Shown here in pieces: positions 1,275-36,206 of a stretch of DNA of 41,183 nucleotides (position 1 is its first letter; each line of letters starts with the position of its first letter). The position numbers and the translations under genes are program-made. Under the pieces are notes generated by a model, which had not been told where the DNA came from, ran no database searches, and saw only the letters and a list, made by a program, of their open reading frames with translations. Where the stretch lies: NCBI GenBank assembly GCA_029834535.1, contig JAQMWT010000107.1, positions 1 through 41,183 of the forward strand. Direction: 5' to 3'. The stretch is from Chrysophaeum taylorii. Lineage: Eukaryota; Sar; Pelagophyceae; Pelagomonadales; Pelagomonadaceae.

Positions 1275-1588
1275 CGCCGCGGCAACTCCCGCCTCCTAAG
1301 GCTCACCCCTCTTCTAGCCCCCCCCCTTATCAGGGGCACCCTACTCCGCTCCGATGATGTCAGTTTTCTCTATGACATCATCTTCCCTGATTTCGGTTAT
1401 TCAAGTGTTCTTGATCATAAAGCAACAGTCGATCATCAAGTTGTGAGGACCAGGCACGGAAGTTGTTTGTGGTTGTGTGGCGAGAGAACGGCCGTCCTCG
1501 TCCAGTGACTCCATCAAGAGCACGGACGCGAGCGGCGAGCCTAGATTCGAAGGTGAGCCAGGTATGCATAATTTCCTGTAACGCCACA
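1275..1588 (+). repeat. 5' LTR of element A
   Basis: Aligns over its length with 11585-11921 (roughly nine in ten positions, plus an indel of about 20 bp). It ends AACGCCACA. It contains a poly-C block near 1320 and a perfect 10-bp inverted repeat, GATGATGTCA (1353-1362) and TGACATCATC (1373-1382). Confidence 0.9.
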
Positions 1589-1589
1589 G

Positions 1590-2020
1590 GTGGTGGAGGA
1601 ATACGAGATTCGAGCGACCATATCGGTCGCAGCGGACGAGTGCATCTTGCATTCTCTACACGGTCCGGACGAGCCGTGCGCGCCCTGATCAAGCGCGCCG
1701 ACGAAGAGTTCAAGAGGGACCATCGCCGTGGGAAAGTTCCCCGGCCGGATACGTTAGTCGTCGGAGGTGACGACGCGCGGATCGGTTCGAGCCGACGCGC
1801 AACCCGGGTACCGCTGCCGCAGGCGAGCGGAGTGAGATCGCAACTCACTGAGGTATTGATTCCCGGGCAGATACGAATTCTGCCGCCCACCGGAACTGAC
1901 AGATCAGTCGGTGGAAGACGCACGCGGCGACGATATTACGCGTGTCGTGGACGAGTAGAAGTCCCAGAGTCGGAGGAACACGAGAACAACGACGACTCAA
2001 CCGTTTTGGACCCGTTCTGA
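1590..2020 (+). pseudogene. gag: Element A gag, N-terminal segment
   Basis: The frame is open from inside the LTR to a TGA at 2018-2020. It is Arg-rich with a segment about ALIKRADEE near 1690. The homologous leader of the relic at 19679-19797 encodes a recognisably related segment (TVQSRVHTLVKCAD) in the corresponding frame. This conservation between two diverged copies argues for a real N-terminal gag (matrix-like) portion. The start codon is unclear: an ATG-like start could lie in the LTR, or translation may begin further down. It joins the next gag segment only through a frameshift near 2015. Confidence 0.45.
1591..1608 (+). promoter_or_regulatory. Primer binding site of element A
   Basis: TGGTGGAGGAATACGAG begins two bases after the LTR end. 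The relic at 19353 has TGGTGGAGGATACGA at the same place. The leading TGG pairs with a tRNA CCA end, and the acceptor 5' strand implied is GGAGGAU. I cannot assign the tRNA with confidence. Confidence 0.65.
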
Positions 2021-2051: not shown

Positions 2052-2627
2052 ATGGAGGACGATGATGCTGCTGACGAGCAGATACGAGAACCCGAACCTT
2101 CAAGTCGTCCCGAGGGGACGAACGAGCGGAACGATGATGATGAAGATGAAGTTGATGATAATGCTGATAAGGACTATGCTACCGAGGATGATGACGATGA
2201 ATAAGAGCTGGACTACGACGGCGATGAACCGGTGGAAGCGCCGCCGGAGAGACAACCGACAGCTCCGTCAACACGTGCGCGAAACCCAGATGCAACGAAC
2301 ATGAACGAGTTTTACGAAGCTCATCTACGCGAGTTACGCCGAGAAAACGAACGCGCGCAAGAGAGACTTCTACAGCAGATAGCAGAAGAAAACGATCGCA
2401 AGGAACGGCTACGCCGGAAGGAGACAGAAGAGTTACGAGAGCAAGTGCGGAAAGCGAACTCTCGAGCAGAAGAACTCCAAGCTCGATCCGAGGAACTTCA
2501 AGATCGAGTAGATTTATTGACCCGAGAAAGGGACGATTTACGTACGCCGAGTCGATCAAGGCGAGCGAGGCCCGGGATCCCGACCCGAGGAAGAGCCGCC
2601 GCCTACACGAACACGCGTGAAAGTTAG
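2052..2627 (+). pseudogene. gag: Element A gag, acidic and coiled-coil segment
   Basis: Starts at the ATG at 2052, which has a purine at -3 and G at +4. An Asp/Glu-rich region (about residues 1-60) is followed, after an in-frame TAA at 2202-2204, by a long charged heptad-like coil from about 2310 to 2560 (ELRRENERAQERLLQQIAEE and onward) typical of oligomerising gag linkers. The frame ends at 2625-2627 and overlaps the capsid frame by a few bases, so a +1 shift is needed to continue. It may be a programmed frameshift, but with so many other lesions decay is simpler. Confidence 0.55.
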
Positions 2628-3564
2628 GAAGCCGCGCTATGATGACGATGATTACGAAACTAAGGAGGGGACGCATGACGACGGGAAGATCGACAACAAG
2701 AAGTTCCTCATGGACTTCACTGACCGGTTCGCCAGCGCGCTAGCTAAACACGATCGCAGCAAGGATCGGCGATCAACCTCCGGATTAAAGACTGAAACGT
2801 TTAAATTGGTTCTTGATGGTCGCGACCAGGACCAGTTCGATTTAGATGCAGGCGCAGTGATGAGTACGTTAGCCGAAGACCATTTTAGCATGGAAAAGCT
2901 GCGGTACCTACTGCCAGTAAGCTTACGCGACACAGTCGCACCGATTTTCCGAGAACACTTGAAGAAATACAAGGACGAGTGCAAGGATCTCGACCATCCG
3001 GCGTCTTTTTATTTACGTCGGGATATCGACGATGATGAGTACGGTTCAGTGGTACGACGACTACGACGACTGAACAGGGAGTACTGCCTCAAGATTTTGA
3101 GATACTTCCGATCGAGTTGCCCTTTGCCTATGACGACAGAGGAATTATTACGAAAGCTTCAGAGTACGACCCAGGCGACCGTTCCGAAACGACCTGGGGA
3201 ACGCCATGTGCACACTTATTGCACCAAATTCCAGAGCGAGGCGATGGCCTACTGCTCTGTGGCCAACCGAGACCTCAATGATGTTGAGATCATTTCTTAT
3301 TTGATACGTGGACTGGAGTCCAACGAGCTACGATCCCGCGTGCGAACCATGCGCAGCGGGCACCCGACTACGTATAATACGTTTACGTCGACGTTGTCAC
3401 TGATTACGCGGCTCGAGAACGATTACGCGACCGCGTTGGCGGAGCGGAGCAGCCGCAATTCGCCGAACCCGTCGAGCGGGAAGCCGCAGAAACCGCCGTC
3501 TGGACGCGGAGGCCGAGCGCTAGCTTCGGGACCGAAAGATAAGAAGACGAAATATGAATCGTAA
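2617..3564 (+). pseudogene. gag: Element A gag, capsid-like domain
   Basis: About 315 codons. The stretch from roughly residue 90 to 280 has the helical layout of retrotransposon gag capsids: LRYLLPVSLRDTVAPIF, then EAMAYCSVANRDLNDVEI, SYLIRGLESNELRSRV, and a closing helix LSLITRLENDYATALAE. The C-terminus is a basic Ser/Pro/Gly linker (SGKPQKPPSGRGGRA). There is no ATG at the start of this frame, so it is entered from the upstream frame. It ends at a TAA (3562-3564), with coding continuing in the same frame immediately after. Role: particle assembly. Confidence 0.7.
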
Positions 3565-4780
3565 CGTTTAGAAGAGAATCCGAAAAAGTGGTACGAGCTC
3601 ACATGCAAGGATTGTGGATTTTTCCTCTCGACCCACGACAAGGATGAACATGGGAGCCGCGTCATTTGCACCCGCGAACCCGATGACTATTATGTTGCGA
3701 TGTGCAAGTACATCGAAAACGACAAGAAACCTCTCTCTCGAGGCAGATGGGAGAGTCGACAGAAGAAGGATACCCAGTCGCGCGATGATGGCAGTTCAAA
3801 TGCCACTCTCGGTTCGAGCGCCGCTCATGATATTCAGAGCAGACTCAACGACATGGGCACGCAGCTGACCACGGTCATGGATTCCGTGAAGCACTTGAAA
3901 GATGGACACGGCCGATCGTCTTCGACACGACCGGGCCGTCGAGATAGCCGGAGCCCCCGACGCCGCGACAAGAGCCGTAGCAGCTCGCGTCCGCGCCGGC
4001 GGAAAGAAAGCCGGAGCCCTAGCAGACATTCGCGCCGACGCCGGCGACGAAGATCTCGCGATCGCAATTCGGACGATGGACGTTACCGAGAAGACTCGGG
4101 TCATTCGTCTGCTACGTTCGCGTTTACGACCCCTTGCGGTCAACAGTTACCATTAGGAGTGATGATGTACCCGGACACGGACACCCGCTCCGACGACGCA
4201 GCCGACGCCCTTGCCGCGGCCGCATTCGAAGATCGTGCTCGCCCGCCGCCGGACGAGCCACCCAACGAAGTGCTGACCGATCGTCGGTCTTTGGCACGGA
4301 TTTATGAAGAGATGTCGAGCGACGAGCTCGAAGAGTCGAGCGATGAACTCGAAGCTCCACGATACTGGGAAGGCGATTCGGACTCGGAAGACGAAGAAGC
4401 TACACCTTGTGAACCAGTGTCCGCGATTACGTTACTTGACGAGTCGTCCACGGACGACCCACCGTTTGTTTTTGACGAGGAAGCCCTCGACGCTATCGGC
4501 TTATCTTTGGACCCTCCAGAGACGACCTTTGGCGACCGGACTGGCTGTGAGCCAGACATGGATTTCTGCAGCGATAGCACGGATGATCATTCGACGGACG
4601 AGACGATGACCATCGCGAGTGATGCAGACGACGATCTTACGATAGAGTTGACGTCGGGGACGACGCCATCTTTTCCTGCGGACCCCCCCGAAACGGTTTC
4701 GGTTACGACGGATCGAGCCACGGATACGCCGCCGGAAGAAAAGGATATTAAATCCATCATGCGTCGGACGAGAAGCTACG
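3565..4780 (+). pseudogene. gag: Element A nucleocapsid: Cys/His cluster, RS-rich domain, acidic region
   Basis: Same frame as the capsid, past the TAA at 3562. First comes a Cys/His cluster (CKDCGFFLSTHDKDEH, then Cys about 8 residues on), a non-standard relative of the gag zinc knuckle. From about 3913 to 4075 there is a strongly RS/RD-rich stretch (SRSPRRRDKSRSSSR and RSRDR) resembling the RS domains of splicing factors. A highly acidic Ser/Asp/Glu segment follows to about 4770. Around 4760-4790 the sensible reading moves to the next frame. Inferred role: RNA binding. The RS domain may give nuclear or splicing-factor contacts, which is inference only. Confidence 0.55.
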
Positions 4781-5864
4781 TGTACTGTCCGAAGACGAAA
4801 GGGTCGCTTCTCCGACTGAGCAAAGCCCGAATGTGTCACCGCCAGAAGAAGAGAGCAGTGACGGTGTCGCCGGAGTCGAGCCGAACCCGACCAAAGAAGA
4901 TGGATTTAAGAAGAAGATTAGCAGCGTTCTCGATTGGGACGAAGACGAGCCGACGTGGAACCTGCAGGATTGGTGGACGAGAACTCGGAACTTCTTGCTA
5001 AAGAAGCCACCAGAACGACCGCTCAGCTACGGAATCGAAGCCGCAGCCGACACGGAACCGATCGCCGATGACGGTGATGATCAACCGATGACGAATGAAT
5101 CTACGGATGCATTCTGGAACGACGAAATGAGCGAGTTATGGGAGAGGTCCTTTACTTCCGAGAACAACGAAGATCAGGATCCCTTACCAACACTGATTCC
5201 CTCCGAGATTGTTATGGAGGAAGAGCGGAAGCCACCGGATAAAGAGGCTGCCGCGAGCGCTGCGTCGATGACGCCGACAATAGATGATACGAGAGCTCAA
5301 GCCGCGGTGTCGATGCCCAACCCCGGCGACGAGCGAGTCAGAGCCCAATGTTCTCACACTTCGTTGACGCCGCGAGATGGCAAGACGATCGAAGATGATT
5401 TGGTTACCCTCCGTTGTTTGGATACGGGTACTCTTACGTTTATGGCCTGTCACATTGACAGGAATCGTGACGGACCGAAATTCTCGACGACCATCGGTGT
5501 TGATGGAATGGCAGATGTTTCCTATATTTGCCGCGAAATGGTCAGAAAGTTGGCCAAAGATAAGTTGATTTTCGATGAAGGCGAGCTTCCGATTAAGCGC
5601 AAGCTGTACGGATCGGGGTTGAATACGACGACGATTTATCGTTGGATCGCGATCCGGGTCGCCCTCGCCGACGACATCGCTGCCCCCATTGTCGCTATTG
5701 TGGCCGACACCAACTATCTGTTCCTGTTGGGAGGGCGCGATATCCGAGTTTTAGGAGCCGTCGTGGACTACCCCACGATCGGATCTGTTTTTATCGAACC
5801 CAAGTCGTCTACGGGCGCAAGAAGATTAAAGTCAAGGGTGAACGAGTCGATGCACCCATTGTGA
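4781..5864 (+). pseudogene. pol: Element A pol, retropepsin-like domain
   Basis: The frame is open through 5864. An acidic linker precedes a domain from about 5460 to 5790 with the layout of an aspartic protease: FSTTIGVDGMADVSYI aligns with the usual D(S/T)GA active-site strand, and YLFLLGGRDIRVLGAVVDY aligns with the family's hydrophobic-LLG-RD strand. The catalytic box reads DGMA instead of D(S/T)GA, so activity is doubtful. The frame breaks near 5815, where homologous reading moves to the frame that leads into the methyltransferase. Confidence 0.55.
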
Positions 5865-6388
5865 CCTTTCGATCTGTTTACGATCGAGACCCGATAACCG
5901 TGCCGATTTACAATCATCAGCACGACGCCTTTCGGCCGAGTCTCGACCTGGTCAAGACTCGAGTTTACGCTCGTTTGAGCACGATTAAAGATCTCCGCAG
6001 CCCGCCGCCGGAACGAGCGGTAGCCTTGGCGACGCGGGGACATTCTACGACCAAATTCTCCTCAGCTCCGGGAGAAATCGCGCGGGTAGTAGTTGCTTAC
6101 GCTGCGCGCGCGCTTCAAATCGAGCCCGGTCGAGCTTACAATCTACTGGTTATTTTGTCGAAGCCTATGGAAAAAGGACAGGTTTTCGTCGCTACGTTTG
6201 CTGAAAACGAGCAGTTGGGAGTTGTCGAAGGGATGTGTTCTTCTTGCGAAGAGCACGACCGGTCCGCTGCTCGTGTGGCGGTTACTTCCGCGGAAGAAGT
6301 GCCGACGGTCGTCACTCAAGGCGAGGTTCTCGCGATTGGCGACATCGTTCGGTACGAAGATGAGTTGAGCGTTTATACGATCCGTTAG
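5815..6388 (+). pseudogene. pol: Element A pol, segment between protease and methyltransferase
   Basis: Begins after the frameshift near 5815 with KKIKVKGERVDAPIVTF and runs to a TAG at 6386-6388. The same frame continues beyond the stop into the methyltransferase. Beta-rich, with VTQGEVLAIGDIV near the end, recalling the beta-domain that follows retropepsin in many gypsy polyproteins. Not otherwise recognised. Confidence 0.45.
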
Positions 6389-7900
6389 CTTACGAAAGAA
6401 TGTGAAGAAGGATACGACAAGGGGAACCTTTCTTTCACCGTTTCCGTCGCTAGTCATTTGACGCGCTGCGACGAATCTCCCCCGCCGATGTTGCTGAGCA
6501 CGGCGCAGAAGGACGCTACAGCCGCTGCTGTGGACAAGTCCTCCCTCAAACGACCCAAAAGAGACGACGATTTCGCTCGACGGTCGGAAGAAGATGAAAA
6601 GAAGTGCCGCGAGATCACCGAAACAGAGATCCGCCGCCGATACGAAAAGGGTCAATGGCTTCCAATCACTTATCGCAAGGTGGTGATGCTGTTCAGTGGA
6701 GCCGGGGGCAGCACTTTAGGTCTCCAACGAGCCAACGAAATGTGTGGGACGTCGTTTCGAGTCGTGCTAGCACTCGACGCGTCGGACACCGCCAACAAGA
6801 TCCACCACAAGAATTTTCCGAATATTCATGTGGTGCAGCACACGCTTTGTGGTCGCTATGTTACAACCCTGCGGTTGATCGAATCTTATTTACCTTACGC
6901 GGAATGGTCGTCGTCGATGTGTATCGCGTCGCCACCCTGCGTACACTCCGCTCTGTGCAATTTGACTTCCAGAGATGTGGGAAAGGGAGTCACCGCCACC
7001 CACTGGACGATGAAATTATGCAAGATGGCTGGTTTCTTCATGTGGCTGATAGAGCAGGAGGCCTCGATTATTTCTTACGTTGCGCGTTTGCACCCTTACG
7101 TGTACGTCGTCAATTTTTACGACATAACGCCCAGTTTGATGAGCTGTCGCGTGCGGTTGTTGGTTTCCAGCCATCCGCTCCATTTGCGCGCAGTTCCAAA
7201 GACTTGCAAGAATATGCAGCAAGAGCTCGCCGCTGTGCTTGGCTACGCAGACGAACGGCATTTACTTCAGACGAACAACTTAGGATCATCACGAGCCGCG
7301 ACAGACGCAGCTTATACCGTTGCGCGTGTCCCGCTTCGCGTAGGACCGCACCGTTCCGATTACAGATCTCTGAATCTGAAAGTGACTTCGGAGTTGCTGA
7401 CGATGCCCCTGGATTTTGATTGGGTCGGCTTCTCCAGGAAGACCTCGTTGAAACACTTGGCGTCCGTCGTGCCACCAGACACGATGGCCTTATTAGTACT
7501 CGACCTGCACAACTCTGTGACCAAGGATTTTCACTTGAGCGGCGAGGCTTTGCCGTCCGCGTTGAGTCCTGCAGACCGACCGTTTGATTGTTATTTGCAA
7601 ATCGATGAAACCTCCCTTCGTCACATACAAGTTCCGCTGTTAAACACGCGCACACGTGTCGTAAGATGGGTATCGACGGATGATCTCCAAGATCGCACCA
7701 AATGGAAACCTCCAGAGGTGCCGTTGATTCCGCCTGCAACAGATGAGCCGGGGACGTCTCATGCTTCTTCTGCTGCCCCCCCCGACAACCAAATTTGGAC
7801 GTTCCGCCAGATCCTGAGCAAGATCGGGAACCGAAGATTAAGAGCGAGCCGAGTGTTCGTGTCAAAGGCGAGAAGATCAACAAAAGCCACCCGGATGTGA
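6389..7900 (+). CDS. C5-cytosine DNA methyltransferase domain within gypsy pol
   Basis: Open without a stop from 6389 to 7900; the first ATG is 6488. Residue numbers count from 6458. Motif I is LFSGAGGSTLGL (Phe79 onward, the SAM-binding glycine loop). A motif II-like ALDASDTANKIHHKNFPN follows. Motif IV is ASPPC with the catalytic Cys161 (codon 6938-6940). Motif VIII-like SCRVRLLV is at about 230. The C-terminus has MPLDFDW and LKHLASVVPPDTM, matching motifs IX/X where GNAVPP is usual. The motif VI position reads EQE (199-201) rather than ENV. The order and spacing are those of known C5 methyltransferases, which transfer a methyl group from SAM to cytosine. It lies between protease-like and RT domains, so it would be made as part of the polyprotein. 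It is the best preserved segment of this element. Confidence 0.85.
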   Translation, partial: LTKECEEGYDKGNLSFTVSVASHLTRCDESPPPMLLSTAQKDATAAAVDKSSLKRPKRDDDFARRSEEDEKKCREITETEIRRRYEKGQWLPITYRKVVMLFSGAGGSTLGLQRANEMCGTSFRVVLALDASDTANKIHHKNFPNIHVVQHTLCGRYVTTLRLIESYLPYAEWSSSMCIASPPCVHSALCNLTSRDVGKGVTATHWTMKLCKMAGFFMWLIEQEASIISYVARLHPYVYVVNFYDITPSLMSCRVRLLVSSHPLHLRAVPKTCKNMQQELAAVLGYADERHLLQTNNLGSSRAATDAAYTVARVPLRVGPHRSDYRSLNLKVTSELLTMPLDFDWVGFSRKTSLKHLASVVPPDTMALLVLDLHNSVTKDFHLSGEALPSALSPADRPFDCYLQIDETSLRHIQVPLLNTRTRVVRWVSTDDLQDRTKWKPPEVPLIPPATDEPGTSHASSAAPPDNQIWTFRQILSKIGNRRLRASRVFVSKARRSTKATRM

Positions 7901-8003
7901 GACTAAAATATGAGAAAAGTACGATGTATAATGGAAAGATGCGCCGCCCGATGCTGATGGTGCACCGCTACCGCAAACTCCCGAGCATGTCAATGATAAC
8001 CCC
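7795..8003 (+). pseudogene. pol: Element A pol linker, Lys/Pro-rich, frames shifted
   Basis: From about 7795 the sensible reading leaves the methyltransferase frame (DVPPDPEQDREPKIKSEP, Lys-rich to about 7920). It then moves again near 7930 into the RT frame (DAPPDADGAPLPQTPEHV). It links the methyltransferase and RT domains. Two indels are implied. Confidence 0.4.
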
Positions 8004-8900
8004 GTGATGAAAGTGAAGATTCCTACGAAGGAAGAAGTTGACAAGGTTGTTCAGGAGCTTGGGGTTCCTGACAATCCGCACCTAGATGACGATGCGAAGC
8101 TGATGCTCCGTCATAGTGTGCAATATTCTTCGGCCTTTTTCGACCCGAGTATGAGACCTGTGGACTCGCAGCCTGTGTCTCTACGATTCAAGGACGCGAA
8201 TCCGCGCCCGATTAAGATGACGCCCTACCGACTGACGCCTGCGAAGCTCGATTGTCTCCGCAAGCAGATCAGTGAGTGGTGCCGGGATGGAGTCATTCGT
8301 CCGGCCAACTCACCTTGGGGCTTTCCTGTGTTGATGCTTCCGAAGAAAGGAGCTGAGATTGGAACGTCAAACGCGTTCCGTGCTGCAGTTGACTTACGTC
8401 AGCTCAACGATCAATTGGTCAATGACAGTTGGCCGAACATTCGACAAGACGATGCTTTGGCTTTTCTCGCCATGCGACGCTGGCGGACATGCATTGATAT
8501 TAGATGGGGATATCACAACCTTCGTCTGGACCCGGCAGCGCAAGACGCTGCCACGATGGTTAGCCCACTTGGCGCTCATAGTTTCTTGCGATTACCTCTG
8601 GGTGTGAAGACGGCCGGTGCTCTTTTCTGCAAGCAAGTGGCGAGCGACCTTTCGAAATGGATGTATCGAGACTTGGTTGCGTTTGTTTACGATATTATGA
8701 TGGGATCTGACGATCTTCATCGACATTTACAAGTTTTGATAGAAGTTACGTGTCATTTGGCACATGGAGGGTACAGCGGTCGAACCGCAAAGTTCCACCT
8801 TCTCAAGGATGATATAGAATTGCTGGGACACATTTCGACCCCAGAAGGCTTAAAGCCGAATCCGAAGACGCTGGAAGCACTGCAGAAGATGCCGATCCAG
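8004..8900 (+). pseudogene. pol: Element A reverse transcriptase
   Basis: Ty3/gypsy-type RT: YRLTPAKLDCLRKQISEW, then DGVIRPANSPWGFPVLMLPK, FRAAVDLRQLND, TCIDIRWGYHNLRL (catalytic Asp present), LPLGVKTAGALFCK, and the palm motif as FVYDIMMGS. The last should read (Y/F)xDD; the first Asp codon is TAC (8688-8690), a single G-to-T-type change, so catalysis is predicted to be lost. LLGHISTPEGLKPNPKTLEAL marks the normal RT end. Near 8890-8905 the frame shifts before the connection domain. Confidence 0.85.
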
Positions 8901-9560
8901 GTGATTTACCGAATACTTATCCGAAGACCCAGATACGCTCTTTCATCGGCATGAGCAATTACTGCCGGTGATATGTGAAAGGCTACTCGAAGATAGTGGA
9001 ACCGCTGAGACGATTATGCCTCGAAGGCGTAAAGTTCGAGTGGACACCCGAGTGCCAAAAGGCCTGGGATACGATTATTGAAGCTTTGGTTGATTCAAGA
9101 GGAGTCTACCACCCCGATTATGATCTGCCATTCCAGATCCGACCCGACGCTCCCAAGGATGGACTTGGAGCATACCTCTTCCAGATTGTCGAAGTCAAGG
9201 ACGATGCAGGACGAGTGACTCTAGAAGAACGAGTGATTGAATACTGGCGCCGGGCCGTGCCGAATGAGATGCGCAATTATGAGCCCCGTCGGCTAGAGCT
9301 GCTGGCAGTTGTCCTTTCTCTGGAGCACCTTATAGCCTATATCGAAGGGCACCGGACTGTTTTGGAGACCGATCACCGAAATTTGACGTTTTTACGTAAG
9401 GCGGCGCACTCGTCTGGGCAGCTTGCTCGTTGGGCGATGCGCCTCGCCAACTTTGACCCTGAACTTGGTTACAAGCCGGGAAAGTCACCGGGTATGAGTA
9501 TCCCTGACTGTCTCTCCCGCAATCCGATAGATCATGTCATCGAGACTGACGAGTTTGGAG
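8901..9560 (+). pseudogene. pol: Element A RT connection and RNase H
   Basis: After the frameshift the frame reads TQIRSFIGMSNYCR, then TGA (8969-8971) where family members have an Arg or aromatic residue, then YVKGYSKIVEPLRRLC. RNase H follows: FQIRPDAPKDGLGAYL with the first Asp, EMRNYEPRRLELLAVVLSLE with the Glu, and LETDHRNLTFL with the next Asp. These are the expected Ty3-type active-site residues. It degrades the RNA strand of the RNA:DNA hybrid. Continuous with integrase. Confidence 0.8.
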
Positions 9561-9779
9561 AACCCTCGAACCACGCTTATTTAGTGTTCCAAGAGCTTCC
9601 CCGACCTGTTGATGACCAGGGAATTCCTGCCTCCGGATGTCACTTAATATTGTCGTTCGTCACGACCGAACTGCCGGAAGACGAGGAAGAATATCCCGAA
9701 AAGGATCCGATGAGATTGGCTACGTCTCGCGCTACGAGACAACGTCGGAAGAACCGTGTGCGCGATGAGCCCCAGGTCT

Positions 9780-11053
9780 TCAAGGACGCAGCCGCTTACA
9801 AGGATTATATTGATAAAATTCCGGATAATATGACGCTCGCTGAGATCGCACGCGAGCAAGAATCTGATGCTACTTGCGAGGATATTCGCTACCGAATGGC
9901 CCAAGGTCAGACGCCGCGACGTTACCGAGCGAACGAACGACATGAAGTTGTGAAAGACATTCTTTACCGCATTTCTGCTGATTTGTACCCGATGATTGTG
10001 GCCCCTGCCACGTTGCGCAAGCGCATTATTCGACTCTACCATGACACTCCGGTTAACGGTGGTCATATGGGACGTCACAGTACTGTCCAGGCTATCCAGG
10101 AACGATTTTGGTGGCCCCACATGTCGAACGAAGTCGGAGTCTTCATTGCTGAATGTTTAGTTTGCCAGAAAGCTCGTACGCCTGAGCCGAAACGAGCTGG
10201 ACTCTTGCAACAGCCTGTCTACGATGGTGATGGCGCTGTTCTATGCATGGATTTATTTGGGCCCTTGCCCAGCGCTGGTCCCGAGACGTATCTTCTCGTG
10301 TTTTTTTATCCGTTCTCGCACTTCTTGATGTTGGATGTTTCGAACGATAAGACTGCTGAGTCCGCTCTTGAGTCTTTTGTCATTAACATCCTCGTCTAGG
10401 GCTACTTGCCCCAGATGATTCGTACCGACAACGGTAAAGAGTTCGTGAACAAGTTGATGCGCGAGTTTTGCCATCTCTTCAACATGCGATACCAAACTAC
10501 GATTCCCTATCATGCCCAGTCGAACCCGGCTGAACGTGTGAACCGATTTATCAAGGCCTTCCTCCGTGCCTGCCTTCAGGGCCGGAACATCACGGATTGG
10601 CCCGACTTTGCCCACTATATTGCGTTTTGCTACAACCGCAAGTTTATTCCAGGCACGCAGATTTCTCCCTTTATGCTACGCCTGAACCGTCAGCTGATCT
10701 TGCCGGCCGATTATACGCTTATGGACTTCGATACCCGACTGTTGCCGAAGACTCGCTCCGACGCAGTCGCTGAGACTCGTGAACGATTGAAGTACTATAC
10801 GAAGATCGTCCGCGAAGCCCGTGATAAAGCTATGAAGAAACACCGATTGGCTTACAACGTCGATCATGTCGATGTTGAGTACAAGGAAGGATCGCATGTT
10901 TTGCTCTACATTCCTTTCCTTCAGAACAAGCTTCGACCGGAATGGCCAGGACCATTTATTATCAAGGAACGCCTTTTCCCGGTCACTTATAGGATTGAGT
11001 CTCTCGACTCTCCGCCCGAAGAACGACGTGTTCATGTTACAGTCAGATCACGC
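9780..11053 (+). pseudogene. pol: Element A integrase
   Basis: HHCC zinc domain: YHDTPVNGGHMGRHST and CLVCQKAR. The DDE core retains all three acids, in MDLFGPL, IRTDNGKEF and NPAERVNRF. A TAG at 10397-10399 interrupts the frame, which then resumes unchanged; copy C at 30745 has a sense codon there. The C-terminal beta-barrel-like part (VLLYIPFLQNKLRPEWPGPF, then a Lys/Glu strand) matches the usual gypsy GPF/Y module. The frame shifts near 11040, where copy C reads straight through. Role: integration of cDNA. Confidence 0.85.
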
Positions 11054-11544
11054 CTGTGATGGTACCACCGATCGTTGATCAAGCCATCCGCAAACCCGAA
11101 GAAACCTTCCGTGATGATTATCAGCACGGTAAGTTTGTTGTTTTCCGGATTCCTGACCGGAAGCGCTCTGATTGGCGCAAGAAGATTTATGTTGCTGAAA
11201 TTTACGAGCCTTACGATTACCAGAATGATCGTGCTGCTCTACATTTCTATTCCGATTTGGGTCCGAACGATGATGTCGCTTATTTCAAGCCGACCTCTCA
11301 CCTTTCGAACCGCGAGCTCAAGCCTGAGTTCAGGGACGCTGACGGTCGCAGTTTAACCGACAAGTCCAAGATCTCATCCAGCACAACTCCTTGTGTCACG
11401 GATTTCGCTCCGCACGAGATTGATGTGTTGGTCCCCAAGTTTACTTTACGCAGTGGTCGAGTTCCTGAGCCGATCGTCACCCGCGTTTACAAGAAGATTC
11501 GTTCACGAGATGCTCGTAAGGCGAAGCCGCGCTCTTCGCGATAG
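11045..11544 (+). pseudogene. pol: Element A integrase C-terminal tail
   Basis: About 160 codons continuing integrase after the frameshift; in copy C (31700-32175) the two are contiguous in one frame. Contains WRKKIYVAEIYEPYDY, then ALHFYSDLGPNDDVAYFKP, a pattern of short strands with aromatic residues reminiscent of chromo- or Tudor-like barrels, and a basic end (RDARKAKPRSSR). A classical chromodomain signature is not present. It may steer integration through chromatin, which is inference from position. Confidence 0.6.
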
Positions 11545-11584: not shown

Positions 11585-11921
11585 TGTGGCGGCAACTCCC
11601 GCCTCCTAAGGCTTACCCCTCATTTAGGTCCCCCCCCTTATCAGGGGCACCCTACTCCGTTCTGATGATGTCAGTTTTCTCTATGACATCATCTTCCTTT
11701 TCCGTGACATGTGTCACCCTGGTTTCTGTGATTCGATAATATCTTAATCATAAAGCAACAGCCGACGCTCAAGTTGCGAGTACCAGGCACGGAAGTTGTT
11801 TGTGGTTGTGTGGCGAGAGAACGGCCTTCCTCGTCCAGTGACTCCATCAAGAGCACGGACGCGAGCGGCGAGCCTAGATTCTAAGGTGAGCCAGGTAGGC
11901 ACAATTTCCTGTAACGCCACA
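11585..11921 (+). repeat. 3' LTR of element A
   Basis: 337 bp, TGTGGCGGCAAC...TAACGCCACA, with perfect 7-bp terminal inverted repeats. The bZIP-site-like inverted repeat of the 5' LTR is preserved exactly (11664-11673 and 11684-11693). Confidence 0.92.
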
Positions 11922-23895: not shown

Positions 23896-24010
23896 CAGGT
23901 GCTGGAAAAGAAAGAAAAGGAAAAAGGGGTAAGTGAGGTCCTCACACAGGTGCTGAAAAGAAAAAGGAAGAAGGAAAAAGGGGTAAGTGAGACGCTCACA
24001 GAGGAGAAGC
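23866..24010. repeat. Imperfect tandem repeat next to the copia 3' LTR
   Basis: The unit GTAAGTG...CTCACACAGGTGCTG plus a purine run (AAAAGAAA...AAAAAGGGG) occurs two and a half times, partly overlapping the LTR end. On the element strand this region is pyrimidine-rich, so no classical polypurine tract is visible at the LTR. Confidence 0.7.
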
Positions 24011-24019
24011 TTTGATGAA

Positions 24020-24640
24020 GACGTCAATAGAGGCATTGTGGCAGAAAGAAACAGGAGAGATCAGGGCGAAGTCACGAGGTGAGGTAACGAGCACGAAGCC
24101 GGAGGACGGAAGGAGCTTCCGTACTGCGGGTGAAAATATCGCTAAGGTTGTCAAGGCGAGTAATGTGTTGGAGATCAATGATGTGGTTGCGATGATATTC
24201 GGCGGTGCTGTAAAAGCGAATATCAACATGGCGGGTGCGCCGCGTGAGACATTGGAGACGGACTTGGGTGACGGTGGTGCTATTATCGACGTACATTGGG
24301 ACTGTGTGACGAGGGATGTCAAAGTCATCAAAAGTTTGAGAAGCCAAGAGAGCCCAGCAGTAGCGGCGTAAAGAGCGAGCAATTCAGCTTCAAAAGAAGA
24401 GCGGGCGAGGAGGTACTGCGAGCGGGAGCTGTAGGCGATCATAGAGCCAGCAAGGAGAAAACAAAAAATAGTAGTGGAGTGGCGGTCATCAGGGTCGTCG
24501 GCCGAGCTGGAGTCGGAATAACCACAGAGACGAAGGGTAGAATCGCGACCAAGAATAAGAGCAAGATCCTGAGAACCGTTGAGATAACGCAGAGTGTGGA
24601 TAAAGCGTGCCCGTGGGGTTTACCAGGATTGTGAAAAACG
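24020..24640 (-). pseudogene. pol: Copia RNase H and C-terminus
   Basis: Element-strand frames give GYSDSSSADDPDDR with the first RNase H Asp, then SSRSQYLLARSSFEAELLAL with the Glu. After a shift near 24380 comes MYVDNSTTVTQVRLQC, then RTRHVDIRFYSTAEYHRNHI and NLSDIFTRS. These are the standard copia RNase H landmarks, with the end NLSDIFT(R/K) as expected for the polyprotein terminus. It shifts frame twice relative to RT. Confidence 0.8.
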
Positions 24641-25640
24641 CGCACACTGATTGACGGACCAAGTGATATCAGGGCGAGTCATGATGGAGATAAATAGGAC
24701 ACAGCCAACAACACGACGAAAAGGGATGCGCGCCATGAAGATGTGATCTGGAGAACCAGGAGCAGGACAATCAGCCGCAGAAAGATGAAGACCTTTTGGA
24801 GCGGGAGTCAGTTCGGGTTTACTGTTGATGAAGCGATGTTCGGTAAGGATTTCACGGATAGCATGGGATTGGTCAAGAGTGAGCGTGCGTCGAGGGCGGT
24901 CACGCGTAATGCGAAGACCAACGTAAGTGGTGAGATCAAGCTCGTTGACGTCAGTGAAGGTTCGGAAACGGAGGAAGAAGGCTTGGTAATGGCCAAAGCA
25001 ATGACGAGGGTGCGCCACAAGAAGATCATCAACGACAAGAACGAGACGTAGGACAACGGTAGAATTAAGCACGAGCTTGTAATTGCAAGTGTCACCAGAT
25101 CCGCGGACGAAGCCACAATCATTGACAAGGAAGCGTTCCAAATAAAGCCACCAATTACGACAAGCTTGTTTGCAACCATACCAAGAGCGACGGAGCTTGT
25201 AAACGATCTTGGAACCATCGGTGGGTTGGCGAGGAGCATAGCCTTCGGGTGGCCAGACATAGATGTCTTCGTCAATGGGAGCTTGGATAAAAGCGGAGCT
25301 GACATCCAACTTGTGCAAATCCCAGTCATGAACAGCGACAAAGGTTAGAAAGACACGTATTGTGACGATGTTAGCAACCGGCGAGTAGGTGTCGTGATAA
25401 TCAATACCGTGAACCTGAGTGTAACCGCGGACAACGAGGCGAGCCTTGTGCGATTTGAAGCGGCCAGAGTCATACTTCTTGCGGAGGATCCACTTGAGGA
25501 TACAAATGTTGCCTGAAAAAGTCGAAGGAACGCGAGCAACATCCCAGCAACCAAGCTCACCAAGGGAATGATATTCTTTGGCGATGGCTTGCAACCAGCC
25601 AGGACGCTCAGGATTTGTCTGAGCTTAAGCTTCGCGCAAA
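24620..25640 (-). pseudogene. pol: Copia reverse transcriptase
   Basis: Classical Ty1/copia RT in one uninterrupted frame of about 320 codons: WILRKKYDSGRFKSHKARLV, then RGYTQVHGIDYHDTYSPVA, LHKLDVSSAFIQAPIDEDIY, SWYGCKQACRNWWLYLERF, and the catalytic LVLVVDDLLVAH (the two Asp codons at 25025-25030). The palm aspartates are intact, so this module looks competent in isolation. The frame is lost at both ends. Confidence 0.9.
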
Positions 25641-25740
25641 TGGGCGGAAGTAATGGCAGAGTTGTCAATGTATGAATACCGAGAGGCTTCTTCGGAAGCA
25701 GAGTAATAAACATGTGCATGGGGATCAACAAGGGTGTGAG

Positions 25741-26553
25741 CTAGACAAGGGGGAGGAAGACATAATGAACTAACAAACGAAAGCTAGAAGAAGAGACATA
25801 CAAAGAGTGGCAGGAGGAAACATAATCGACAGAGGAAACAGAATCGACATTGTGACAGGAGGAAACAGAATCGACATTGCGTTGTGGACAAACGTCAGAA
25901 TGAAAGTTCGATGATTGAGTGTTTGGTAATGCGCTTTGGTCGACTTTGCGCGGTCGTCCCCGTTTGGCTCGACGTAATGGTGCACGTTTCGTATTGTCCG
26001 TTGACGGTTGTGGTATTGTTTCAGGGGTGATCAGTCCCGATAAGGCCGGCTCCTGAGCATCAAAAACAGGAGACAAGGGAGCAACAGCGGAAGATAAACG
26101 AGGGTCATAATAAAATAAGTCAGGAAAACGAGAATCCACAAGAGGGGGAGGAAGGGGTTGGGAGGACAGAGACTTACGCATAGCAAAATTTTCGTCAAAA
26201 ACAACGTCAATCGAAGTGTGGATGACGGGACCAGTGGCGCGTTGAAGCAATATGCGATATCCAGGGCCGGCAGAGGGATACCCAATGAAGATACCTGTTA
26301 TAGCTTTGGTAGGCCATTTGTCGCCAGTAGGAATTGCAGCAGGACAGCCCCAAACACGAAGAAAATCGACACGGGGGAGAGTTTCATGTAGCATTTCATA
26401 TGGCGTCATGTAACCAGGGTTAGAGGCGTTTGGCATGCGCTCAGAGATGAAGTCAGCCGTTTCCATGGCCCAACGCCAAAAATCAGGCGGACGGTGCGCA
26501 CGCACCAAAAGAGTGCGAGTAATATCAGCAGTTGGACGATGAGAGCGTTCCAC
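25741..26553 (-). pseudogene. pol: Copia integrase C-terminal half and AT-hook linker
   Basis: Begins at the third catalytic residue (GVVERSHRPTADITRTLL). Continues with NASNPGYMTPYEMLHETLPR, RVWGCPAAIPTGDKW, then ITGIFIGYPSAGPGYRILL, the usual copia 'GYS-GYR' block. Further on the linker carries RAKRGRPRKV (25949-25972), a textbook AT-hook core, and a Ser-rich repetitive tail (SVSSCHNVDSVSS). The AT-hook suggests minor-groove DNA contact, which is inference. Confidence 0.8.
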
Positions 26554-28021
26554 AACACCAGAAAAAAAGCGTGCGCCTGTGAAGTTTTGGACTGAGCTGC
26601 AGGAGCACGTTTGAGAGCGATGTTGTTGCCCAGACAGAAGGTTTCGAATTGGCCCATAAGAGAGCGGTCACGATCTGTGTAGATGAGGGCAATGCGATAT
26701 CCAAATGGACGAACCACGGTAGACAGAAAAAGTTCGAGCTGACGAGCGTTCGTAAGTGCATCGTGTCGTGGAGCAAAGTAACGTGTGCGGCGGCGCGTAT
26801 GATCATCGACAAACGTGAGGATGGCTCGGGCGAAGTGGAAGTGGAGGCATGTGCTTTACGTTGGCCAACATGCGCAGCATGCATTTTACCTAGAGCACAA
26901 GCAGGACAAAAAGAAAGAGACGCGGAGCTCGGGAAAAGCGGTGCGCCAACAGCGAGAGAAGACAAACGTCGGATATAAGAGGGACTATAGTGACCAACAC
27001 GAGCATGCCAAAGGTCGAAGGTAAGTTGAGTGCGCTGAGACACAGCGGGAAACGCACAAGGGTCATGTACGCGAGGGCAAGAAGAAAATGCCACAAAAGG
27101 TGAAACGAAGTCCGCGTAGGGCGCAGCGGTCGTATTGCCGATCCAACAGACGATCAAAAGAAGACCGCAGCGACGAAGCAGGGGAATAACGTGATGCGTT
27201 TGTCGGTGACGTAAAATGCGTTGCGGATGAGCATGGCCAACAGCCTGAATCGTATGACAATCGTAACCAACTTGCTCAAGGGCATGATCCGAAAGAATCC
27301 GTTTGTCACCAAGGCCAGGAGAAATGAGAGTATGCGGGAACGCGACATGGATACCATGAGGGGCGGAAAGAGTGGGTGGAGGAGAAGGAAGACCACGATT
27401 GTCGAGAGGACCAATTGAAGGGAACGTCAAGTGAGCAGTGCCAGAACCAGAAACAGAGCCAGTGCCGATAGCAGAAGTGATTGAGTGCTGTTGAGTGTTG
27501 TCAAGGTCAGTGAAACCAGCAGAAGAATGGAAGAGATTGACGTTTGCGCCGGTATCGTAGACGACGAGGCGAAGGTTGTTGCTGTGCAGGTAGTCGCGCT
27601 CACGAGCGGTGAGCAGAGCGGTAAGAGCATTGGTGGATGAAAGGACTTGATGAATGGAGGGGGAGATAGAGAGAAGGTGGTAATTGAAAGAGGGATAGGT
27701 GGGTGCAGAAAGAGATGGGTCAGGAGGGGAGATGGCGGTGGAAGGTGGGACAGAGGGTGTGGTGGAGGGTGGCAACGCAAGAAGCGGCGGAGAGGGTTGT
27801 TATGGGGACAAGAGTGGGATGGGGGCGGAAAGATAGTTTTGGTAGAATGGTGGATGGGGTCGAGGTGGGTATTGGGGATTGAGTCGAGGTGGGTAGTGGG
27901 GATTGGATCGAGGTGGGTATTGAGGCCGAGGGCGAGGGCGGGCGGCGGCTTGTGAGAGCAAATAGCGCTGGCGCTTACGACTGTCCTTCTGGTGATGGCC
28001 AGGAATACCACAAAAGTGACA
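26525..28021 (-). pseudogene. pol: Copia second zinc knuckle, protease, integrase N-terminal half
   Basis: Starts with a second knuckle CHFCGIPGHHQKDS (27980-28021), in which the last Cys is Ser. Then comes a Pro-rich repeat (NPHYPPRLNPQYPPR) and, after a TAA at 27800-27802, protease with the active site LVVYDTGANVNLF (Asp codon 27554-27556). GAG-pre-integrase follows with HHCC: LWHARVGHYSPSY and CPACALGKMHAAHVGQ. From about 26880 the core is read in another frame (LTFVDDHTRRRTRYF and IALIYTDRDRSLMGQF). The spacer that normally holds the first catalytic Asp is unusually short, about 15 residues, and may be deleted. Confidence 0.8.
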
Positions 28022-28029
28022 AAAGTCAG

Positions 28030-28818
28030 TAGGGCGTGACGGGAACGGAAAGATGGGCGAAAAGATGGGCGAGGGCTAGAACGTTGTTGGGAGCGCAAAG
28101 CATTGAGACGACTAAGGCATTTATCAGAAGGATGGTCGGTACGACCACAAAAGTTGCAACGTTCACGATGGCGGGGACTCTCACGGAGCGTAGCATGGAC
28201 AAGCGCAGACTTGGTCTGAAGATAATCGAAAACTTTACTGTTGAGGCGATCAACGAAACCATCATATGTGCGCAGTTTAGGGTCAAGTGCAATGAGAGCC
28301 TTAGACAAGATCGAGTCGGGGATTTTCGTCTGAAGCAATTGCAATGCAAGAGTGTCAGGGAAATCTTGATGATGCCGAGCAACTTGAACACCAGTGATGA
28401 GCTTGTTAAGAAAAGACTCAAGTTCATCGATATTGTTGCATACCAAGGAATGCAAGGAAGCAATTGCAGACTGAGCGAAACGATCCCCATGGCCCATATA
28501 AACATCGGTAATGCGCTTGTAAAGCCGCGTGAAGTTCATATCGCGGTTTTCACGGATATCCGCACGATGAGTATCATGCATTGGAAGTGCCATAAACAGT
28601 GCAGAGTACCAACGTTGCTGCTTAACACCAAATTCTTCTCCAGAGCAGCCAGAGGCGGAAATGCTAGTCCAAGTGTCGTTGGTCAAGATAATGCGATCAC
28701 CGGTGGAAATGATCATGTTTTCCTGGCGCCGGGTCCATTGGTGAAAAAGATGTCGCTCACCGCTGAAGGCATCAAGTTTTTGCGAAAGCTTGCTATCCTT
28801 AATTTCGATCGAGGACAT
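28030..28818 (-). pseudogene. gag: Copia gag
   Basis: ATG at 28816-28818 (minus). A helical gag of the UBN2/copia type: KLDAFSGERHLFHQWTRRQE, VKQQRWYSALFMALPM, NIDELESFLNKLITGVQVAR, LLQTKIPDSILSKALIALDP. Then a perfect CCHC knuckle CNFCGRTDHPSDKC (28117-28158) for RNA packaging. The frame stays open downstream but the sensible reading shifts near 28030 to reach the second knuckle. Confidence 0.85.
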
Positions 28819-28909
28819 GATAAACGATAACGAACCGAACACGTAGCAATGAACTGAAGCCGATGAAGAGTCGACGTGAAGTCAAGCACAGGTTCGATCG
28901 GAACAATCG

Positions 28910-30691: not shown

Positions 30692-30762
30692 ATTTTGGGT
30701 ATGCACGAGAAAATTAAGGGCACCGTAAAGAACGGGTCTTAGAACGCGTTTGATGGCCGCAC

Positions 30763-32175
30763 ATGTCGATCGAAGTCGGAGCCTTCATTGCTGAATCTTT
30801 GGTGTGTCAGAAAGCTCGCACGCCTGAGCCGAAGAGAACCGGTCTCCTGCAACAGCCCTTGTACGATGGCGATGGCGCAGTTCTGTGCATGAGTATGTTT
30901 GGACCCTTGCCCAGTCCAGGTCCCGAGACGTATCTTATCGTGTATTTCGGCCCGTCCTCGCATTTCCTGATTTCGGATGTGCTGCACAAAAAGACCTCTG
31001 AGGCGATCCTTGAGTCCTTTGTCACTCATAATAGAGGGTATTTGCCTCAGCTGATCCGCACGGATAATGGCAAGGAGCTTGTCGACAAGTTGATGCAAGA
31101 GTTTTGTCACCTCTATAACATTCGCTATCAGACTACGTTTCCGCACCATGCCCAGTCGAATCCCGCCGAGCGTGTCAACCGGTTTATCAAGGCCTTCCTT
31201 CGCGCATGCCTTCAGGATCGGAATATCACGGATTGACCCGAGTTTGCTCACTATATCGCGTTTTGCTACAACCGCAAATTCATTCCGGGTACACAGATCT
31301 CTCCGTCCATGCTTCGCCTAAATCGCAAGCCCATGTTGCCGACTGATTACACGCTCATGGATTTGGATGCTCGAAGGTTGCCTAAGACCCGTGCTGATGC
31401 GTAGGCTGAGACTCGAGAAGCGTAAAAGTTATATACAAAAGTTGTGAGCGAGGCCCGTGACAAAGCTCTACGGAAGCAAAAAATAGCCTATAATGCCGAC
31501 CATGTCGATGTCGAATATCAGGAAGGATCGCAGGTTTTGCTGTATATCCCTTTTCTGCAGAACAAATTGCGTCCGGAATGGCGAGGCCCGTTTGTTATCG
31601 TGGAACGCCTCTCGCCGGTCACTTATAAGATCGAGTCCCTTGACTCTCCGCCTGAGCAGCGCTGTGTTCATGTCAGCCAAATCACGCCTGTTAAGGTTCC
31701 TCCGATAGTCGACCGCGCAATTCCCAAACCGCAGGAAACTTTCCGCGACGACGACAAGCATGGCAAGTTCGTCGTTTTCCGGATTCCGGATCGCAAAAAG
31801 TCCAATTGGCGCAAGAAGATTTACGTTGCCGAAGTTTACGAGCCTTATGATTACGAGAATGACCGTGTTGCCTTGCACTTCTAATCTGATCTCGGGCCTC
31901 ATGACAAGGTTTCGTACTTTAAGCCTACCTCCCATCTTTCTACTCGCAAGCTGAAGCCAGAATACAACGATGTCGATGGGCGGAGTTTCACCGACAAGTT
32001 CAAAATCACCACGAGTACTCATTGTGTCACTGACTTTGCTCCACACAAGATCAACGTGTAGATTCCTAAGTTCACGTTGCGCAGCGGTCGGGTTCCTCAC
32101 CCGAACGTCACGCGTGCGTACAAGCAAATCCGTTCACGAGATGCTCGAGATGCGAAGGCTCGCGCTTCGCGCTGA
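30763..32175 (+). pseudogene. pol: Gypsy copy C integrase and tail
   Basis: One frame throughout, with stop codons at 31234-31236 (TGA where element A has Trp), near 31402 and 31420, 31882-31884 (TAA where A has Tyr) and 32056-32058. Keeps CLVCQ-type Cys pair (SLVCQKARTPE), IRTDNGKELVD and NPAERVNRF, but the first catalytic Asp is Ser (CMSMFGPL). It shows that integrase and the C-terminal tail form a single frame in the family, and so locates the frameshift of element A near 11040. Confidence 0.88.
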
Positions 32176-34698: not shown

Positions 34699-34898
34699 AG
34701 TAAGGTTGACGCGTGCGACGGCGATGGAGCCTTCGCCCGGCAAACGGGACGACGCGCTCGAGCCAGGGACGCTACGCGAGCCTCGACGCCGGCATGGCAT
34801 GCCGGGGTTTTTCTTTCGATGTTCTTTCGGGGTTCTGGCGCGCGCAAAAATGCGACGCGATTTCGCCTTTATTCCGCGCGAACTCTTCGGTACCGCGC

Positions 34899-35425
34899 GA
34901 TGCGTGCCGGCGTCTTCGTCGCCGCTGCGAGCGGCCACCGCCGTCGCGACCGCGGACTCGGACACGCCCGCGGGTTGACGTCCAGTCGACCAACCCGAAT
35001 AAAAACTCCGCGGCCGCTGCGACCGGCCACCGAAATCGAGAAGGGCTTGCCGCGCTCGCGTCTGCGGTCAAAGCCCGCTTCCACGGCCACGACTCGCTCT
35101 TCCGACGGGACGTCCTCGAGAACGCGCGAGACCGAACGAGACTCGACCGTCGACTCGGTGGATCGAACATCGTTTCACCTTCGATACGATGCGTGCCGCC
35201 GGCTTCGTCGCCGCTGCGAGCGGCCACCGCCGTCGCGACCGCGGACTCGGACACGCCCGCGGGTTGACGTCCAGTCGACCAACCCGAATAAAAACTCCGC
35301 GGCGCGGCGCGCCGGCGCTCGACGCGTCTGCCAGCGCTTCGATACGATGCGTGCCGGCGTCTTCGTCGCCGCTGCGAGCGGCCACCGCCGTCCCGACCGC
35401 GGCCTCGGACTCTCCCCCGCGGGCG
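34899..35425. repeat. GC-rich tandem/direct repeat
   Basis: A unit starting GATGCGTGCCGG and continuing CTTCGTCGCCGCTGCGAGCG occurs at 34899, 35188 and 35346. The first two copies share about 116 bp, down to AATAAAAACTCCGCGGC. The third is shorter. Confidence 0.8.
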
Positions 35426-36206
35426 ACAACGGCTCGCCGTAAAGTCGCGGCCTTCGTCGAGCGTCGTCGACCTCGACGTGCGACCGCGATTCGCTTGGTC
35501 GACGGTGGTCGCGCCACGACCTGGGACTGGCCGCGCTCTGGCCATCGCAAACCTCGCGACCTACTGCTGGAGCGCCACGGATCGAAGACCAGGAACAACG
35601 CGGCGACGACCGCGACGAGCGCGCCGCGCGCGCCGCGCCGACGACCGGCCGCGCGCTCGCGCGCGTCACGCGACCGCCCGTGGCCGCGCTCTGGCCATCG
35701 CCGACGGAGACGAAGACGCCACGCTCGCGTCTACGGCGAAGCCCGCTTCCGCGGCACGCCAGCTGCTCTTCCCGCAGCGGCCGTCCTCGACGAACCCTCG
35801 ACCGTCGACCGCGACGGCGCGTCCACTATCTATGGATTATGCGCCACGCCCTCGCATACCGCCCGCCGCCACCCGGCGCCTACCACAAAACTATTGTATA
35901 AGGAAGTAACCACGATAAAAAGCAGCCATCGCATATCCGCGAGTCCAGCAAAAAAACGCAAAGCCGAAAAAAACATAGGCGTAGCGCAACGGAAAGCAAG
36001 GAAAACGGTACACCTAACCCAAAGAAAAATTGGCAGAAACTGGCAGAACCAGGACTGAATTTCAGGGCGTGCGACGGGCAGGTCGTCACTGAACGGCGGC
36101 CCTCGAAGACGTGGGGTCCGGGGGTGCCCCTGAGTTTGGGGCAGACCCCTTGTTGGGGTTCGGGGCTTGCTCCCTGCGCCAGAAAAAAAAACGTGGCCTT
36201 ACTAGT
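35426..36206. other. GC-rich, then low-complexity stretch without supported gene
   Basis: Long open frames in 35426-35900 are Arg/Ala/Pro-rich on both strands, as expected from GC-rich DNA alone. Near 36110-36170 there are short nested G4/C4 hairpins. Confidence 0.4.

Follow-up and report, generated by a model that had tools for sequence, protein, structure and literature searches.

A putative C5-cytosine methyltransferase in the pol region of a Ty3/gypsy retrotransposon lineage of the pelagophyte Chrysophaeum taylorii

Why would a transposon carry an enzyme of the kind used for silencing? This question is raised by a stretch of 41,183 nucleotides of Chrysophaeum taylorii DNA (assembly GCA_029834535.1, contig JAQMWT010000107.1), here called the window, in which a preliminary description made from the sequence had placed a DNA cytosine methyltransferase (MTase) inside the pol of a gypsy element, between protease and reverse transcriptase (RT). 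Judged by its sequence features (Table 1), the element is a Ty3/gypsy LTR retrotransposon with a predicted MTase at that place, since the domain order protease, RT, RNase H and integrase is present together with two LTRs and a primer-site sequence. The LTR pair aligned with 288 matches, 24 mismatches (24/312 sites) and 23 gap columns. The 20-mer at 1595-1614 occurred 127 times in the genome at up to one mismatch and its reversed control 0 times. No Pfam match over cut-off was obtained for the gag region, nor any Pfam match for the stretch at 5502-5744, which we take to be protease-like from its motifs. At the integrase end, tblastn with the open reading frame of locus L055 gave 92-93% identity up to 11541. 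In the window copy the DGMAD protease motif (5502) and the RT (from about 7932) lie off the MTase frame, a TAG stands at 6386-6388 and the frame changes near 5.8, 7.8-8.0, 8.9 and 11.04 kb; this stop codon and the several frame changes indicate a broken copy. The window also holds, at 30736-32172 (+ strand), an integrase end (79% protein identity) that belongs to an older relative of this gypsy element.

Table 1. Features of the gypsy element in the window, with loci of the copia-like family
Feature	Position	Strand	Remark
5' LTR, aligned part, 5' terminus eroded	1279..1588	+	aligned to the 3' LTR
Primer-binding site, complementary to a tRNA-like 3' end	1591..1614	+	directly after the LTR
Probable gag region	2521..5001	+	two long open frames; placed by position only
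Aspartic protease-like motifs DGMADVS ... LLGGRDI	5502..5744	+	motif search
Open frame with predicted C5-MTase	6389..7900	+	profile, motif and fold matches
Predicted C5-MTase domain	about residues 91-390 = 6659-7558	+	
Motif I, FSGAGG	6692-6709	+	motif search
Motif IV, SPPC	6929-6940	+	motif search
Putative catalytic Cys184 (TGC, motif IV)	6938..6940	+	invariant in six rows
Motif VI, Glu222-Gln223, EQ instead of EN	7052..7057	+	invariant in six rows
Motif VIII, RVR, Arg254 and Arg256	7148..7156	+	invariant in six rows
IX-like motif	7388	+	motif search
Motif X, VVPPDT	7466	+	motif search
Run of C at the MTase-RT junction	7776..7783	+	length differs among copies
Reverse transcriptase, RVT_1	7932..8954	+	E 2.2e-8, 34.5 bits
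RNase H and integrase zinc-binding domain	8972..10399	+	PF17917 3.3e-22, PF17921 1.7e-18
Integrase core end and C-terminal part, two frames	10400..11541	+	rve 2.7e-5, below cut-off
3' LTR, TGTGGCG...CGCCACA	11585..11921	+	LTR alignment
Copia-like family loci	L039 and L041 (C96), L040 (C314), L003-L008		MTase with LPCQ, ENV

We consider it nearly certain that the frame 6389-7900 encodes a divergent C5-cytosine MTase and that the element family has retained it. The frame is stop-free for 503 aa over 6389-7897 in the open reading frame listing. PF00145 matched the whole frame at E 1.5e-4 and 21.8 bits, against a curated cut-off of 22, over residues 97-151 only, that is, motif I and its surroundings; the excised domain scored 22.5 bits, above this cut-off, and the MTase of a sister lineage (L054) scored 24.3 bits. 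At E up to 1, all 12 aligned copies matched both PF00145 (best 1.1e-6) and TIGR00675 (best 4.2e-4), and phrog_116, 'DNA methyltransferase', was matched at 2.6e-7. Motif search found motifs I, IV, VI, VIII, IX and X in the expected order in one frame. The motif order and the stop-free frame of the preliminary description were thus borne out; the catalytic cysteine that it numbered Cys161 is residue 184 of the frame. Glu222 lies 38 residues past Cys184, the same Cys-to-Glu spacing as in M.HhaI. We aligned the window family with relatives 23-30% identical to the window in six rows (alignment A4), and Cys184, Glu222 and Arg254/256 were invariant across them. The usual ENV is absent from motif VI, with EQ in 6/6 rows and the Glu retained. 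Additionally, hhalign paired this EQ with the ENV of the PF00145 protein P0124, at an E-value flattered by the choice of P0124 as the best (and one) match of a protein search with A4 (E 0.82).

The fold pointed to the same enzyme class. The structure model was weak as a whole (pLDDT 44.5, pTM 0.46, core better; pLDDT 34 for the single-sequence model), and among the Foldseek matches listed 50 of 50 were C5-MTases, as were 50 of the 50 rows of the VIA list, the first of which is a C5-carboxymethyltransferase. Profile search and structure prediction therefore both returned C5-methylases, in agreement with the preliminary assignment. The best Foldseek row was DNMT2, a tRNA methylase, at 2.5e-8, and DNMT2 was also among the weak sequence matches, which raises the alternative that the enzyme acts on RNA (the genomic RNA of the element or its primer tRNA) and would protect or retain that RNA. 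We regard this as unlikely, as DNMT3, DNMT1 and M.HhaI follow close behind in the same list, M.HhaI and DNMT1 rank high in the VIA list, and the CFT signature of DNMT2 was not seen by eye in the window frame. No DNMT2 appeared among the 50 VIA rows listed, which says nothing against DNMT2. When searched against PDB, the window protein alone gave weak DNMT2 matches (E 0.1 and 0.12) and one GGA1, the profile of 12 near-identical copies gave GGA1 only (5/5, by chance) and no MTase, and the six-row profile gave C5-MTases in 4/4 matches (best 0.0088). The 12-copy profile found nothing in the host DNMT5 domain by hhalign and matched the host DNMT2-like protein at E 0.0022; the six-row profile matched the latter at 6.5e-5 over 74 columns.

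The element is a member of a numerous family. A genome scan with the MTase, in which 85 of 1412 candidates were scored, listed at least 87 rows at 72-100% identity, and 60 of these 87 have no internal stop. In a second scan, with the RT (119 of 1184 candidates scored), 119/119 matched at 84-100%. Twelve RT copies with no entry in the MTase list were checked; in all of them the MTase precedes the RT, in several as fragments lying in different frames. The embedding in pol between protease and RT thus recurs in the copies checked, and none was found among them without the MTase domain. A one-off insertion or a chance likeness of motifs, to which the single-sequence Pfam score just below cut-off and the GGA1 result of the 12-copy profile might have pointed, hardly deserves credence against the copy number, the relatives and the fold; we rejected it on the genome copies, the 12/12 RT copies with MTase and the conserved relatives. 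Uninterrupted copies occur: in two of them an open frame, 3063 and 3067 aa long respectively, contains both MTase and RT. In another copy (P0002) protease and MTase share one frame. The LTR pairs of four further copies differ at 0/335, 4/334, 15/336 and 19/333 sites, and these pairs, one of them identical over 335 bases, indicate that the family moved recently. A 5 bp target-site duplication (GCACT) was seen by eye in one of these four copies and none was visible in the other three.

The junction between MTase and RT varies among copies. In 25 of 30 MTase loci we could locate where the RT starts; its frame was the same as that of the MTase in 12, shifted by two in 10 and by one in 3. In 37 of 43 loci picked by their likeness to the window, the two domains are separated by a run made up of C and some G; its length modulo 3 is 0 in 21 loci, 2 in 13 and 1 in 3, figures to which assembly errors in homopolymers may contribute. 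From these sequences it looks as if the homopolymer acted as a switch that puts MTase and RT either in one fused frame or in separate ones.

To place the family, proteins were searched with the RT-RNase H part, which gave 298 proteins at E<=1e-10, candidates sharing most words being scored. Among the best 120 of the 298, twelve showed 49-64% identity and the others <=35%; six of these twelve cover only 32-71% of the query. The MTase was found by profile in four of the best 120 (P0005, P0006, P0008 and P0009), upstream of the RT, and a profile of the own-genome copies found the same four at 6e-20, 5e-8, 7e-47 and 6e-49, respectively. P0005 is an MMETSP transcript, P0006 is an EukProt/MMETSP transcript labelled Chrysocystis, a pelagophyte, and P0008 and P0009 are encoded on contigs some 10.9 kb long. 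P0006 has the C-terminal part of the MTase only, and its reading may simply begin late. In a midpoint-rooted FastTree of RTs that included 30 of the 106 generic gypsies passing the coverage filter, the six coverage-passing members of the group and two own-genome copies formed one clade (support 1.0). All four clade members whose sequence runs 275 aa or more upstream of the RT query have the MTase, whole or partial; in P0004 and P0007 the upstream sequence is limited to 40 and 125 aa, respectively. Since the basal split of the clade has members with the MTase on either side, a single capture before this split is the simplest explanation, and the family would most simply be an old gypsy lineage that captured its C5-MTase once, before its known members diverged. 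The EQ in place of ENV together with the single RT clade supports a distinct lineage, as the preliminary description had supposed. The MTase region of P0002, used as a query against proteins, gave 0 matches at E up to 0.01, scans of viral contigs gave no relative, and none was found among the prokaryote genome contigs searched with P0008.

The MTase is under purifying selection, looser than that on the RT. Of the 30 fetched loci, which are the ones closest to the window copy, 23 entered the Nei-Gojobori dN/dS calculation (252/253 pairs), after seven had been dropped, five with stops and two with an offset start. The median among these similar copies was 0.245 for the MTase and 0.213 for the RT (18 of 30 loci). 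Along the MTase the ratio was 0.404 for residues 1-90, 0.163 for 91-190, 0.064 for 191-290, 0.332 for 291-400 and 0.338 for 401-467, so that constraint is strongest over residues 91-290, where the catalytic motifs lie. Compared with the divergent sister lineage L054, the MTase gave a ratio of 0.106 (dN 0.15, dS 1.41, the latter near saturation) and the RT 0.029. It is improbable, given this concentration of constraint and the invariance of the Cys, the Glu and both Arg in six rows, that the domain is a structural, non-catalytic passenger such as a nucleic-acid-binding spacer, although motif I is degenerate in P0005 in the six-row alignment and the truncated MTase of P0006, whose late start may be only apparent, would fit a passenger.

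These results suggest that the enzyme probably marks nucleic acid, perhaps that of the element itself, in the course of the element's life cycle. The MTase would be translated within the Gag-Pol polyprotein, or as Gag-protease-MTase in copies whose frame stops after the MTase, and might then be released by the protease of the element and packed into the virus-like particle. There it could methylate cytosines of the new cDNA ahead of integration, so that the copy would resemble host DNA on entering the nucleus, or would arrive there with a chromatin state of its own choosing. We put the probability that the MTase methylates the cDNA of the element in the particle before integration at about one half. 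This reading draws on the position of the MTase, on the selection acting on it and on the published de novo CG methylation activity of the SymbioDIRS-Dnmt3 enzymes (PMC5890265). It is weakened by the degenerate motif I of P0005, by the lower constraint on the MTase than on the RT, by the DNMT2 at the head of the Foldseek list and by the lack of a CG methylation trace described below.

The host probably has a methylation system of its own. Scanned with PF00145, the genome yielded at least 57 matches (123 of 474 candidates were scored), all away from the gypsy MTase sites: one DNMT2-like (C634, a class named from motifs by eye), one DNMT5-like (C621) and 55 more. The DNMT5-like gene (L002, L058) has a 2086-aa open frame with DNMT and SNF2 domains (SNF2 9.4e-14) and probably provides maintenance methylation; with such a gene in the host, the DNA of its own nucleus is probably methylated. 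In Aureococcus, another pelagophyte, DNMT5 accompanies dense linker methylation (PMC9998398).

Among the other 55 matches, 8/8 examined share one MTase family, which on one contig belongs to a copia-like element. The order there is a gag-like region, a protease motif, the MTase (PF00145 at 8.5e-8), an integrase (rve at 0.0048, below cut-off) and RVT_2 (2e-38). In this family the MTase core has a median dN/dS of 0.125 (28 pairs, 8 copies). This MTase retains ENV, and hhalign detected no likeness between it and the gypsy MTase (probability about 0.1%). For this lack of likeness a common origin of the two was set aside; independent capture by gypsy and copia is the favoured reading, and deep divergence the less likely one. 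A C5-MTase thus adjoins the protease in two kinds of LTR element of one genome. Betaretroviruses offer a parallel in the dUTPase of their pro frame, an accessory enzyme adjoining the protease, although the enzyme, the side of the protease and the host are all different. It is conceivable, if doubtful, that pelagophyte LTR elements repeatedly gain a C5-MTase after the protease, gypsy and copia separately, and mark their own cDNA with it before integration; if true, this would be a transposon fixing its own chromatin state at birth. The question of why a transposon would carry a silencing enzyme becomes testable by comparison here, as one host has two MTase families together with a DNMT5-like enzyme of its own by which any mark written could be maintained. 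In addition, the window contains a copia element at 23996-28881 (- strand; RVT_2 1.9e-35, gag_pre-integrs 3.9e-9), in which no MTase was detected and which could serve as a control for methylation comparisons.

We looked for the trace that methylation of the copies could have left. The CpG observed/expected ratio was 1.325 in the gypsy element, 1.283 as the median of the fetched loci and 1.188 in the whole window; the MTase-free copia of the window gave 1.090 and the copia element with an MTase 1.041, and the surroundings of the two host DNMT genes gave 1.258 and 1.458. In 29 loci, singleton transitions were found at 12/98 CG, 3/45 CHG, 19/119 CHH and 26/211 A/T sites. There was thus no CpG depletion and no excess of CG transitions over A/T sites in the element or the fetched loci, and the absence of both disfavours lasting CG methylation of the copies. 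The preliminary description had proposed self-methylation or camouflage as what the enzyme may do. It may mean that there is no persistent CG methylation, that deamination is well repaired in the host, that the context is non-CG or that the substrate is RNA. The missing scar also fits an enzyme acting on RNA, a substrate that de Mendoza et al. raise for SymbioLINE, whose enzyme was inactive on DNA in yeast (PMC5890265). The same data bear on an enzyme working in trans, on host chromatin or integrated copies, where it would set silencing or the state of integration sites and keep the family tolerable. The probable maintenance methylation by the host DNMT5-like gene could preserve de novo marks made in this way, but the copies are not CpG-depleted and Symbiodinium retrotransposons without a DNMT are active as well (PMC5890265), so that we hold such a role to be rather unlikely.

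The element has to be seen beside the MTase-bearing retroelements in print, which are described from dinoflagellates and charophytes (PMC5890265); the precedents invoked in the preliminary description are therefore real. A DNMT inside gypsy pol is already known from KnitGypsy-Dnmt3 of Klebsormidium nitens, likewise an LTR gypsy whose Pol ORF includes a C5-MTase kept by purifying selection (PMC5890265). According to its published description (PMC5890265), that element carries a DNMT3 relative and has a DIRS-like repeat arrangement, whereas the C. taylorii element has a stramenopile host, two ordinary LTRs and an MTase set apart by FSGAGG and by EQ for ENV. SymbioDIRS-Dnmt3 and SymbioLINE-Dnmt of Symbiodinium also have an MTase, purifying selection and many copies, but they are DIRS and LINE elements and not gypsy (PMC5890265). 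SymbioLINE is CpG-depleted, unlike the C. taylorii gypsy, and SymbioDIRS is described as not significantly different from DIRS without DNMT (PMC5890265). DNMT3 members in 'LTR Copia and DIRS' of streptophytes and dinoflagellates are mentioned in PMC12344493, citing de Mendoza 2018, so that a DNMT in a copia element has at least been mentioned before, in one sentence; these elements resemble the second C. taylorii family but are attributed to DNMT3, and the words 'pelagophyte' and 'stramenopile' are absent from the main text of that paper. We found no MTase-bearing gypsy of a pelagophyte or other stramenopile in the open-access literature searched. Within the literature searched, the lineage in a stramenopile host, its MTase with EQ for ENV, its age and its spread over species are new, and so is the copia-like family with a different MTase in the same genome.

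Lastly, two minor observations were made. Three 117-bp direct repeats lie at 34898-35461 of the window, the second 98% and the third 68% like the first, and contig C697 of the genome carries two Photo_RC genes, which were taken as psbA and psbD.
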